In this document: piece after piece, positions 2,391-44,663 of the stretch
How the letters are laid out: the number at the start of each line of letters is the position of its first letter
Position numbering within the stretch: position 1 is the stretch's first letter
Assembly (NCBI GenBank): GCA_020725865.1
Contig: DYEC01000012.1
Span: 62,001-126,000, forward strand
DNA length: 64,000 nucleotides
Reading direction: 5' to 3'
Source of the DNA: Anaerolinea sp.
GTDB taxonomy: Bacteria > Chloroflexota > Anaerolineae > Anaerolineales > Anaerolineaceae
The notes under the pieces: model-generated
Told to the model about the DNA's origin: nothing
Seen by the model: only the letters and a program-made list of their open reading frames with translations
The model's database searches: none
Program-made: the position numbers and the translations under genes

Positions 2391-2523
2391 TGGTTGCCAG
2401 TTGGCGACCAGTCCATCACGCACACGCCTGGAATGGCATCCGGTTTTTGGCCGTCTTATGAAGTGTTGAGTTTGTTTGGGGTCACTCCGTTGCCGCCGGC
2501 GTGTGCCGGCGGCTTTGTTTTTT
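2391..2523 (+). ncRNA. Candidate structured regulatory RNA (riboswitch-like) upstream of yedF-like gene
   Basis: Hairpin 1 is TGGTTGCC (2391-2398), loop AGTT, GGCGACCA (2403-2410). A 9-base linker beginning GTC leads to segment X, GCACACGCC (2420-2428). Hairpin 2 follows at once, CTGGA (2428-2432), loop ATGGCA, TCCGG (2439-2443). After 48 bases comes a GC-rich terminator-like hairpin at 2492-2513 with a T tract. Segment X is perfectly complementary over 9 bases to GGCGTGTGC (2498-2506), which covers the loop and inner stem of that hairpin. Pairing with X would therefore compete with the terminator or form a pseudoknot. The same order of elements recurs before yedE at 24687-24794 with different bases. 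I do not recognise a known riboswitch class. Confidence 0.62.
2492..2523 (+). terminator. Intrinsic terminator-like hairpin in the leader of the yedF-like gene
   Basis: GCCGCCGGC (2492-2500), loop GTGT, GCCGGCGGC (2505-2513): a perfect 9-bp stem followed by TTTGTTTTTT (2514-2523). It lies between the promoter and the start codon at 2570, so it is an attenuator rather than an end-of-gene terminator. Confidence 0.75.
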
Positions 2524-11012: not shown

Positions 11013-11028
11013 GCATAAAAAGATACAA

Positions 11029-11113
11029 CGGGGAGCCCTTGATAGGGCTGAGAGGAGGACAAAAAAGTCCTCGACCCGCATGACCTGATCCGGATAATGC
11101 CGGCGGAGGGAAC
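11029..11113 (+). ncRNA. TPP riboswitch (THI element)
   Basis: The conserved segments are present in order: GGGGAGCCC with its partner GGGCTGAGA, a variable arm GAGGAC-aaaaaa-GTCCTC, then GACCC, TGACCTGATC, CGGATAATGCCG and GGAGGGAA. These are the helices and TPP-contacting loops of the thiamine pyrophosphate aptamer. It precedes thiN and a thiamine-type ABC transporter. Downstream, CCCTCC (11138-11143) can pair with GGAGGG of the aptamer end (11105-11110) or with GGAGGG at 11148-11153, which is the ribosome-binding site of thiN, so control is probably at translation initiation. Confidence 0.96.
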
Positions 11114-11136
11114 ATATGTAAGATATTTCTTTTTCA

Positions 11137-24528: not shown

Positions 24529-24686
24529 TTTATGTTTGTATTCAAAAATCAGTGATCACTTGTGACTTTTATCGCTTTTCTTGTGGTTTAGAATCTTGTA
24601 TTATAAAAGTGTGAATCTGCAAACATTTATTCTATGAACCGGGAAATGATAAAGTCAAACTTTCATTTCATCTGAGCTGATATTCT
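24529..24686 (+). other. Intergenic region before the yedE leader
   Basis: After der there is a palindrome AGTGATCACT (24551-24560 region) and then an AT-rich promoter-like stretch with TTGTGG at 24581 and TATAAA at 24602 (spacing only 15, so weak). Transcription starting near 24612 would place the first RNA hairpin about 75 bases downstream. No tRNA or ORF was recognised. Confidence 0.4.
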
Positions 24687-24794
24687 GAACGCCGGTCGGC
24701 GTTCGTCAAACCGTTCCCGTATGCCCGGATAGTCACCGGAGCAACCTTCTGCTTCTGCCTCAAAAAATCCGCTGGCATACGGCAGCGGATTTTT
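24687..24794 (+). ncRNA. Candidate structured regulatory RNA (riboswitch-like) upstream of yedE
   Basis: Hairpin 1: GAACGCC (24687-24693), loop GGTC, GGCGTTC (24698-24704), 7 perfect pairs. A 12-base linker beginning GTC leads to segment X, CCGTATGCC (24717-24725). Hairpin 2 follows at once, CCGG (24725-24728), loop ATAGTCA, CCGG (24736-24739). After 22 pyrimidine-rich bases comes a terminator hairpin (24763-24794). Segment X is perfectly complementary over 9 bases to GGCATACGG (24774-24782), which is the whole terminator loop plus the closing base. The order, the GCC-RGTY-GGC first hairpin, the GTC after it, and the X-to-terminator-loop pairing are shared with 2391-2523, although the paired bases differ. 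Confidence 0.65.
24763..24794 (+). terminator. Intrinsic terminator in the yedE leader
   Basis: AAAAATCCGCTG (24763-24774), loop GCATACGG, CAGCGGATTTTT (24783-24794): a 12-bp stem whose 3' side ends in a T run continuing TTTTTGTTTTC. It lies 140 bases before the yedE start, so it acts as an attenuator. Confidence 0.8.
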
Positions 24795-24933
24795 GTTTTC
24801 AGTACGTACACATGGAAAGGAGGCAGAATCCCGAAGTGGTTTTCCCAAATATTTAGTAATTAAACTCTCAGTAATTAAAGCCTTTGTGAAGGTCAGTCTC
24901 AAGTTTTAAAAATATTTCACAGGAGGTACAGCA
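24795..24933 (+). other. 5' untranslated region between attenuator and yedE
   Basis: AT-rich. It contains a direct repeat AGTAATTAAA (near 24855 and 24871), a possible TGTGAA / TTCACA pairing that brackets the region before the ribosome-binding site, and a 14-codon reading frame from ATG 24812 after which nothing recognisable follows. The Shine-Dalgarno of yedE is AGGAGG (24922-24927). Confidence 0.4.
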
Positions 24934-26052
24934 ATGTTGGAACGTTTGACGAAATTTTTTGCTTCCCGTTGGGGGGTCATTCTGGCAGGTGCAGTCATTG
25001 GTGTTTTGGGACCCACCTTACAAAAACTTGGCAATCCTCCCAATATGGGCATCTGTGTAGCTTGTTTTGAGCGTGACATTGCCGGCGCACTGGGCTTGCA
25101 CCGTGCCAGTGTTGTCCAGTATATTCGTCCAGAAATTGTTGGTTTTGTCCTGGGCTCAACGATTGCTGCGTTAATATTCCGGGAATTTAAGGCGCGCGTT
25201 GGTTCGGCGCCAATAGTTCGTTTTATTCTGGGCATTTTTGCCATGATTGGCGCACTGGTCTTTCTGGGTTGCCCTTGGCGTGCCAACTTTCGTTTGGCTG
25301 GTGGGGACTTGAATGCAATTCCAGCCTTGATTGGATTAGTGATTGGTATCGCTATTGGTGTTTGGTTTTTGCGAACGGGCTATAATTTGGGACGGAGTCA
25401 GAAGACTTATACTGCTGTAGGTTGGATCATGCCTGTTTTGATGATCGGTTTGTTGTTGTTGGTCATTTTTAGACCGGTCTTTAGCGAAGGTGGGCCGATT
25501 TTCTTTAGCGAGAAGGGTCCAGGTTCTTTACACGCACCGCTGGTTGTATCTTTGGCAATCGGGTTGGTCATTGGTTTTCTTGCCCAACGCACTCGTTTTT
25601 GCACCATGGGAGCTATCCGCGATGTTATCTTGATCCGCGATTTTCACCTGATTAGTGGGGTATTGGCTTTGCTGGTAGCAGCCTTTATGACAAATCTGGT
25701 TTATGGTCAGTTCAAAGTAGGGTACGCTGCACAGCCAATTTCGCATAGCAATTTTTTATGGAACATGTTAGGCATGGTACTTGCTGGGCTGGCTTATGCC
25801 TTGGCTGGAGGCTGCCCAGGGCGGCAGCTGTTTTTGGCTGGAGAGGGAGATGGTGATTCTGGAATTTTTGTTTTGGGGATGATCGTTGGAGCTGCCATTT
25901 CGCACAATTTCAATCTGGCAGCAAAATCAGATGCGGTGGTTGAAGGTGCGCTTCAGGTCGGCGGGCCTTCGCCGTACGGGATGATCGCTGTAATTCTTGG
26001 GCTGGTAGTTTGTATTGTCATTGGTTTCACCATGCGTGAAAAGATGGCATAA
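24934..26052 (+). CDS. yedE: YedE-type selenium/sulfur transport membrane protein
   Basis: 372 residues with about ten membrane helices. Conserved motifs of the YeeE/YedE family: FLGCPWRANFRLAGGD, RTRFCTMGAIRD and AGGCPGRQLFLAGEGDGDSG, each with a cysteine that could handle reduced sulfur or selenium. The length and the downstream gene order tusA-csd-DUF3343-selD identify the selenium-associated YedE subgroup rather than the thiosulfate transporter TsuA. Role (inference): import of a selenium compound. First gene of the operon, controlled by the attenuator leader. Confidence 0.9.
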   Translation: MLERLTKFFASRWGVILAGAVIGVLGPTLQKLGNPPNMGICVACFERDIAGALGLHRASVVQYIRPEIVGFVLGSTIAALIFREFKARVGSAPIVRFILGIFAMIGALVFLGCPWRANFRLAGGDLNAIPALIGLVIGIAIGVWFLRTGYNLGRSQKTYTAVGWIMPVLMIGLLLLVIFRPVFSEGGPIFFSEKGPGSLHAPLVVSLAIGLVIGFLAQRTRFCTMGAIRDVILIRDFHLISGVLALLVAAFMTNLVYGQFKVGYAAQPISHSNFLWNMLGMVLAGLAYALAGGCPGRQLFLAGEGDGDSGIFVLGMIVGAAISHNFNLAAKSDAVVEGALQVGGPSPYGMIAVILGLVVCIVIGFTMREKMA

Positions 26053-27677: not shown

Positions 27678-28726
27678 CACCAGATGAGCATAAAGTTCGT
27701 CTGACTGCTTTGGCAACCTGCTCTGGCTGAGCGTCTAAATTTAGCGCGCAAGCGCTGGCGCAGGTTCTGCGTCCTTTGCAGCAAATATTTTCACCAGCAG
27801 ATTATCCGGATCTGCTGGTCGGGTTGGGCGCGCCTGATGATGCAGCGGTCTGGAAAGTGGGTGAACAGCGTGCACTTGTGGTCACAACTGATTTTTTTAC
27901 ACCCATTGTGGATGACCCATATGATTATGGTGCAATTGCTGCTGCAAACAGCTTATCAGATATATACGCTATGGGAGCTGAGCCATTTCTGGCTTTGAAT
28001 GTTGCAGCAATTCCACCGCAACTACCTCCTGAAATCATCTCAGAGATTTTCCGCGGTGGGGCGGAAAAAGCCAAAGAAGCCGGGGTAGTCATTGCAGGAG
28101 GGCATACGGTTCAGGACAAAGAACCCAAATATGGTTTGGTCGCATTGGGATTTGCTCATGCTGATCGTTTTCTGACCAAAAGTGGAATGAGAACAGGGGA
28201 TATTCTATTTCTCAGCAAGCCAATCGGCAGTGGAGTGATCACCTCTGCCATAAAAGCCGATAAGATTACACATGAGGAAGCGATTGAGACAATTGCTTGG
28301 ATGAAACGTTTGAATCGTGATGCGTCCAGGCTTGCAATGAAATATGGAGCTTGTGCGGCTACAGACATTACCGGTTTCAGCCTGCTCGGACATGCCTGGG
28401 AAATGGCGTCCGCCTCTGGCGTTGGTTTACAGTTTCACTATGATGCTATTCCTTTTTATCCTCATGCAGAAAAATTGGCTTTAGAATGGTGCTTTCCGGG
28501 GGGTGGTTTTGACAACGCTGAACATTTTGGGGCTTATGTAAAATTTGCTGCTGAAATAAGTCAAGAGAGACAAATGTTATTGTTTGATCCTCAAACCAGC
28601 GGCGGATTGCTATTTGCCCTTCCAGTCGATAAGGCAATATTATGTCAGCAAGAGGCTCTCTTATCTGGCATTCCCTTATGGCAAGTGGGTAAAGTAACTC
28701 AGAGTAAGCTGATTGAAGTGGTGTGA
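27674..28726 (+). CDS. selD: Selenophosphate synthase SelD containing selenocysteine (UGA at codon 19)
   Basis: 350 residues if TGA 27728-27730 is read as selenocysteine. The N-terminus then reads ALATCSG-U-ASKFSAQAL, matching the catalytic CSG[C/U]A[A/S]K motif of SelD, with Sec at the catalytic cysteine and Lys22 following. Downstream are VVTTDFFTPIVDDPYDYG, ANSLSDIYAMGAEP, VIAGGHTVQD, DITGFSLLGHAWEMA and FDPQTSGGLL, the metal and ATP sites. A SECIS-like hairpin lies at 27757-27773. ATG 27674 overlaps the DUF3343 stop; total length equals the family norm. The enzyme makes selenophosphate from selenide and ATP. A gene caller that stops at TGA would begin at TTG 27776 and lose the active site. 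Confidence 0.95.
27728..27773 (+). promoter_or_regulatory. UGA selenocysteine codon and bacterial SECIS element in selD
   Basis: After TGA (27728-27730) come two adjacent hairpins. The first is AGCGC-GCAA-GCGCT (27743-27756) with a GNRA-type loop. The second is GGCGCAG-GTT-CTGCGTC (27757-27773), 7 pairs including one GU. The apical GCAGGTTCTGC resembles the GCAGGTCTGC of E. coli fdhF, and the loop G lies about 33 bases after the UGA, within the range accepted for bacterial SECIS elements recognised by SelB. Confidence 0.85.
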
Positions 28727-44465: not shown

Positions 44466-44646
44466 CTTGCCTCTGTTTTTGACCTGAGAGTTTCACCCAC
44501 ATTGGGTTTGCCCCTTCGGTGTCATAAGACTTTTCAGAGGGAGACAGAAACGGAGTCCCTTGAACCTGAGAGATTCACTTGGGTAATTGCGCGTAGCCCA
44601 AGCTTGCCCCTTCGGTGCCGGTTCAATGTCCGGACTCTCCTCGCGT
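44466..44646 (-). ncRNA. Tandem glycine riboswitch
   Basis: On the minus strand there are two aptamers. The first starts GGAGAGTCCGG near 44641 and includes CACCGAAGGGGCAAGC and AATCTCTCAGG; the second includes CACCGAAGGGGCAAAC and AAACTCTCAGG, ending CAAAAACAGAGG near 44470. The repeated CCGAAGG-GGCAA and CTCTCAGG signatures are those of gcvT-type glycine riboswitches; two copies allow cooperative glycine sensing. It controls gcvH-gcvPA-gcvPB as an ON switch. Confidence 0.95.
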
Positions 44647-44663
44647 TTCAGTTTGTTTTTGAT

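Follow-up and report, generated by a model that had tools for sequence, protein, structure and literature searches.

Upstream of bacterial selenium-supply genes lies a short leader ORF whose UGA stop codon can probably be read as selenocysteine, and whether the ribosome reads on or stops there most likely decides whether the selenium gene behind it is switched off or on. Two such leaders occur on the forward strand of the analysed window, a 64,000-nt stretch of an Anaerolinea sp. genome (GCA_020725865.1, contig DYEC01000012.1, positions 62,001 to 126,000), one in front of a DsrE/YedF-like gene and the other in front of yedE. A first-pass annotation of the sequence had described a hairpin, a segment X, a second hairpin and an attenuator whose loop and inner stem pair with X in both leaders, and this observation is confirmed base for base. 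Its proposal that the two leaders form one regulatory RNA class linked to selenium genes, in which X-loop pairing acts against the terminator, is supported, whereas its suggestion of an RNA possibly sensing a selenium or sulfur species, a metabolite aptamer, is not, so that the earlier interpretation holds only in part. The annotation had missed the mini-ORF just upstream, and the element of leader 1 starts 40 nt earlier than had been stated, at position 2351.

The mini-ORF of leader 1 (ATG CTC ACC CAA TAT TAT CAT TAT ACC TGA, 2351-2380) encodes MLTQYYHYT followed by UGA, the proposed Sec codon, at 2378-2380. The SECIS-type hairpin at 2391-2410 (TGGTTGCC AGTT GGCGACCA) carries its AGTT loop at 2399-2402, 18 nt after UGA, and is followed by X (GCACACGCC, 2420-2428), the antiterminator strand. 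The frame beyond UGA ends at a second in-frame stop (TGA, 2459-2461), 78 nt after the first. The 5′ strand of a further helix, P3 (GGTCACTCC, 2480-2488), is complementary at 8 of 9 positions to GGAGAGACC at 2557-2565, the Shine-Dalgarno region of the downstream gene. The intrinsic terminator hairpin (2492-2513) and its T tract extend to 2523 and contain X′, the partner of X (GGCGTGTGC, 2498-2506). The gene at 2570-2911 encodes a DsrE domain protein (PF02635) like the C-terminal half of the selenium protein YedF, although its TIGR03527 score of 97.7 bits lies under the cut-off of 110.

Leader 2 has the same plan, with the mini-ORF MIKSNFHFI-UGA at 24646-24675 (ATG ATA AAG TCA AAC TTT CAT TTC ATC TGA, with UGA at 24673-24675), the SECIS-type hairpin at 24687-24704 with the loop GGTC at 24694-24697, again 18 nt after UGA, X (CCGTATGCC) at 24717-24725, and the second in-frame stop (TAG) at 24730-24732, 54 nt after the first. 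The 5′ strand of P3 (TTCTGCCTC, 24753-24761) is complementary to GAGGCAGAA at 24820-24828, and the terminator at 24763-24794 contains X′ (GGCATACGG, 24774-24782). The gene behind it, yedE (24934-26052; TIGR04112, 486 bits, cut-off 200), is followed by TusA/YedF-N, cysteine desulfurase/Sec-lyase-like, Se_S_carrier and selD genes. The Shine-Dalgarno sites of both mini-ORFs look weak. Rfam, named beforehand as the means of excluding a known class, gave no match at gathering scores at either leader or in ten further loci, eight of them members of the class, and relaxed scans of the window leaders returned only sub-threshold matches to unrelated families.

Covariance model searches found the same plan in dozens of related Chloroflexota genomes, mostly before selenium genes. 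A search of 101 genomes (the source genome included) with yedE and the DsrE gene identified leaders initially by X/terminator complementarity and then by eye, clearly before 10 of 14 full-length yedE genes and by eye before 2 more. Only 10 of 37 DsrE loci read carry a leader (one had no upstream sequence), so this gene often lives without it, also in SelB genomes. A model built from 12 leaders (R1) gave 27 hits at E<1e-3 in 381 genomes, comprising the 12 seeds and 15 others that were all read as leaders, of which 8 precede yedE, 5 DsrE, 1 a tRNA and selB, and 1 a TIM barrel gene. A second model (R2, 35 leaders) gave 39 hits at E<1e-3 outside the source genome over 396 genomes of the class; 38 are leaders and one is false (locus L150), and 35 of the 38 precede yedE, YedF-like, cysteine desulfurase/Sec-lyase-like, selD or putative selenate ABC genes. 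R2 also found a third leader in the source genome, outside the window (contig C22, 90100-90254), before a 25-codon ORF that looks like a PCC-domain remnant (no Pfam hit) and an ABC ATPase fragment, resembling a decayed copy of the PCC/ECF operon that is intact at locus L145. A third model (R3, 72 leaders) over 400 genomes of the phylum added genome G415 and six single-contig genomes of 1.7-2.1 Mb, two of them only at E 0.01-0.02; in this single-contig group the leader precedes a 2-hydroxyglutaryl-CoA dehydratase D-type gene.

The curated set of 79 leaders leaves out hits judged false because only a terminator, tRNA or coding sequence matched (loci L091, L094, L096-L100, L108, L110-L112, L150, L154-L156, L174, L175, L177-L179 and L181), three reverse-strand terminator echoes, a partial hit that is by eye a leader (L152), a doubtful one (L157), two leaders read by eye only and not found by the automatic scan (L011, L014) and those found only in the R3 search (L169-L173, L176, L180). 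Five divergent leaders (L012, L013, L028, L033, L051) were added by hand. The counts also exclude weak hits of R1 (further places in genome G202 and those in G276, G184, G179, G117, G191, G192, G365, G249 and G375) and of R2 (G664:C1, G477, G650, G539, G456, G289, G558 and G590), which were not read.

In the 79 leaders the mini-ORF of 4-15 codons ends in UGA at a fixed place in 78, the exception being L141 (genome G382), where the codon is TCA while the frame and second stop are kept, either a natural fused leader that would always read through or a sequence error. In two leaders (L119, L125) no start codon was found by the automatic scan. Hairpin 1 fits the published bacterial SECIS limits (loop 3-9 nt, stem 4-16 bp, G in the first two loop positions, 16-37 nt from UGA, MFE <= -7.5; PMC13188914) in 70 of 79 leaders, both window leaders among them, against 20% of dinucleotide shuffles, and nine miss the limits as scored. 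Of these 70, 57 have the loop exactly 18 nt after UGA, and a stem of 6 or more with a loop offset of 17-18 occurs in 65 of 79 against 5% of shuffles. In E. coli fdhF (NC_000913) GGTC also starts 18 nt after UGA. The commonest loops are GGTC (16), AGTT (14) and GGTT (13). As the models contain the UGA and hairpin columns, conservation of these features among the hits is partly ascertainment. Two other yardsticks were of no use, as the two formate dehydrogenase alpha genes over cut-off in the source genome have no stop inside, and the SECIS spacing of the window's selD differs (best loops 32-33 nt after UGA, or 17 for another hairpin) and neither supports nor contradicts an offset of 18.

The read-through frame, which is not part of the models, is taken as strong evidence that ribosomes pass UGA and are meant to stop at the second stop codon. 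The next in-frame stop lies 54-81 nt on in 76 of 79 leaders, compared with 11 and 19 for the other two frames (Fisher p 5e-33, relatedness not corrected), and the counts are 68, 10 and 17 in a non-redundant set of 70. The second stop lies past X in 73 of 73 leaders, but this is partly built in, because X was sought only 29-54 nt after UGA with a 3-nt overlap allowed, and no weight is placed on it.

The pairing of X with its terminator loop is likewise absent from the models and exceeds chance. In 64 non-redundant leaders X matches its own terminator loop better than those of other leaders (mean 24.0 vs 16.2, permutation z 16.7, 0 of 20000), which is the fairest of the tests applied; three control pairings gave z 2.0, -0.5 and -2.1. 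On a 72-leader alignment the 9-pair X:X′ helix, whose columns were picked on that same alignment, has 88.0% of cells paired and 86 double-change cells against 25 in shuffles, with double changes at 9 of 9 pairs, although the last measure alone is not unusual as 102 of 500 shuffles reach it. The SECIS and terminator helices keep 96.4% of cells paired with double changes at all 14 pairs, on an alignment fitted to them; these figures do not extend to the second hairpin of the first-pass annotation. P3 strands also prefer their own partner (z 9.6), as do those of P0, a helix between leader codons and the strand after X (z 9.2 over 64 leaders), which is weak or absent in the two window leaders.

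Among 81 listed leaders the next gene is yedE in 46, DsrE/YedF-like in 21, cysteine desulfurase/Sec-lyase-like in 4 (one behind a yedE remnant), selD with in-frame UGA in 2, a tRNA plus selB in 1, a putative selenate ABC transporter in 1 (TIGR04553, 357 bits, cut-off 250), a TIM barrel with solute-binding protein in 2, a PCC domain with ECF transporter in 1, the PCC/ABC remnant of the source genome in 1, and unclear in 2. Most were assigned by reading the translation against the window's genes, with family scans run on 15 proteins. The source genome has a full-length SelB, a selD with in-frame UGA and a 63-nt tRNA-Sec piece, 94% identical, which is cut by a contig end and not called by ARAGORN. 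SelB is over cut-off in 37 of 41 leader genomes from the class and phylum sets, four genomes of the single-contig group not being included, and tRNA-Sec scores 60 bits or more in 29 of 37 nearer ones, with seven leader genomes besides the source genome lacking such a hit. Of the 14 relatives with full-length yedE, the two without a leader (loci L010 and L015; genomes G048 and G017) have neither SelB nor tRNA-Sec over cut-off, while 11 of the 12 with one have SelB and the twelfth, G009, has tRNA-Sec.

Taken together, the data are best explained, with high confidence, by a ribosome-mediated transcription attenuator whose sensor is selenocysteine decoding. Comparison among leaders alone supports the mini-ORF, the UGA, the SECIS-type hairpin at its spacing, the open frame of set length, the X:terminator-loop helix, the terminator and the selenium genes downstream, whereas translation of the mini-ORF, recoding of its UGA by SelB in the cell, a response of the output to selenium supply and the direction of switching are inferred, without expression data. 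In this view, SelB with Sec-tRNA reads the UGA when selenium is sufficient, and the ribosome that reads on masks X while the terminator loop emerges, so that the terminator folds and the gene is off; with selenium scarce the ribosome is released at UGA, X captures the terminator loop and the gene is on. In the DsrE leaders P3 can hide the ribosome-binding site of the gene, a possible second, translational layer. Recoding of the fdhF UGA in E. coli is 30-40% and negligible without added selenium (PMC4513850).

Folding with masked segments gave the terminator in 68 of 73 leaders when X was covered, and before the 3′ arm of the terminator exists X:X′ is in the best fold in 66 of 73, so the default is likely antitermination and a ribosome on X tips it. 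Unmasked folding is nevertheless split (36 antiterminator, 36 terminator, 1 other), as is folding with UGA covered (38, 33 and 2), and covering the second stop gives the terminator in 49 but still leaves the antiterminator in 22, so the direction depends on timing. As X ends about 24 nt before the second stop (medians), masking must happen during passage. Both window leaders fold as antiterminator unmasked or with UGA covered, and as terminator with X or the second stop covered.

A Sec-decoding leader of opposite sign is unlikely but is the strongest of the alternatives. Read-through could turn the gene on if the ribosome at the second stop, which lies just upstream of P3 and the terminator, opens P3 and frees the ribosome-binding site or leaves X free behind it, and the preference of P3 strands for their own partner and the 22 antiterminator folds are compatible with this. 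The terminator folds obtained on covering the second stop or X argue against it, and negative feedback is inferred to fit uptake genes (yedE, selenate ABC) better. It is less likely still that SelB.Sec-tRNA bound to the conserved SECIS-type hairpin acts directly as a repressor or roadblock without read-through, as for a SECIS-like element before E. coli selAB, since this does not explain the mini-ORF, the UGA or the open frame of set length.

A metabolite riboswitch for a selenium or sulfur compound is very doubtful. A structured leader with a switchable terminator before selenium genes and without an Rfam class would suit it, but conservation follows the coding frame and SECIS rules, which points to decoding of UGA by Sec-tRNA/SelB as the sensory step. 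Inspection of one alignment, by eye only, showed no invariant unpaired core. Least likely is a functional selenopeptide with incidental terminator pairing, for although the read-through frame is conserved in length, the peptides vary widely after UGA and X co-varies with its loop.

Leader-peptide attenuators of the trp and his type share the short ORF, the competing antiterminator and terminator helices and a ribosome position that reports the supply of one amino acid, but here the control codon is a UGA either recoded or used as stop, the proposed choice is read-through versus release rather than stalling, and a SECIS-type hairpin is part of the sensor. Bacterial SECIS elements such as that of fdhF have the same hairpin with G in the first two loop positions, mostly 17-18 nt after UGA, but the present ones sit in a mini-ORF in a 5′ leader rather than in an enzyme gene, and their product seems to be regulation. 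The SECIS-like element before E. coli selAB, on which a literature search returned no paper, is also a SECIS-type RNA controlling selenium genes but is not known to have a read-through mini-ORF or terminator switch. No precedent for a Sec-decoding attenuator was recognised from titles and abstracts of open-access papers (those consulted were PMC8659212, PMC5322559, PMC13188914, PMC4513850, PMC7888660 and PMC8124441), although most subscription papers and all preprints lay outside the search and a prior report cannot be excluded. The Se regulatory network is called unclear (PMC5322559), and the leader offers a direct, testable answer to how bacteria sense selenium, in which supply of the 21st amino acid is read by the recoding event itself; it would also give a natural read-out of SECIS efficiency and show a stop codon used as a two-way switch.

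It is probable that recoding of UGA to selenocysteine is itself the regulatory decision in a natural selenium sensor, that this sensor marks a selenium regulon across Anaerolineae and in the single-contig group of the same phylum, which is tentatively Dehalogenimonas-like, and that it points to uptake systems not yet linked to selenium. Candidates are the leader-marked operons with a PCC domain plus ECF transporter and with a TIM barrel plus extracellular solute-binding protein (L145 in genome G717, L086 in G251 and L116 in G465). The element is not general to yedE, as R3 found a strong leader in only 8 of 80 named yedE loci, in MAGs labelled Chloroflexi, Anaerolineae, Anaerolineales, Thermoflexales or Chloroflexus, and a weak one in Phototrophicales; the 8 are contigs already in the R3 seed and add no evidence. 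A model-free scan of these 80 loci found Shine-Dalgarno-led mini-ORFs followed by a G-loop hairpin for 9 of 26 ending in TGA, 0 of 17 in TAA and 0 of 2 in TAG, but six of the nine are known leaders, and without them the result is 3 of 20 against 0 of 19, which proves nothing. The remaining three are leads only, namely L222 and L223 from deltaproteobacterial MAGs (MGK[PS]FVPLSL[TI]-UGA, alike in both), which hint that the idea arose or spread beyond the phylum, and L249 (Dehalococcoidales).

At locus L085 (genome G261) a tRNA-Sec-like tRNA lies between the leader and selB (1377-1469; RF01852 36.4 bits, cut-off 47), whose anticodon ARAGORN reads as GCA (Cys); this genome has a separate strong tRNA-Sec hit, and the tRNA-Sec-like tRNA possibly inserts Sec on Cys codons. 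Locus L047 (G017) has a DsrE homologue with one in-frame TGA in a genome without SelB over cut-off. Within the window, selD has an in-frame TGA at 27728-27730 (SGUAS) and is a likely selenoprotein, although ORF calling lists it only from 27776, and the Se_S_carrier gene (PF11823, 27453-27677) lies between the cysteine desulfurase and selD. The window also contains known riboswitches, TPP at 11019-11128 (+) and glycine at 44543-44653 (-).
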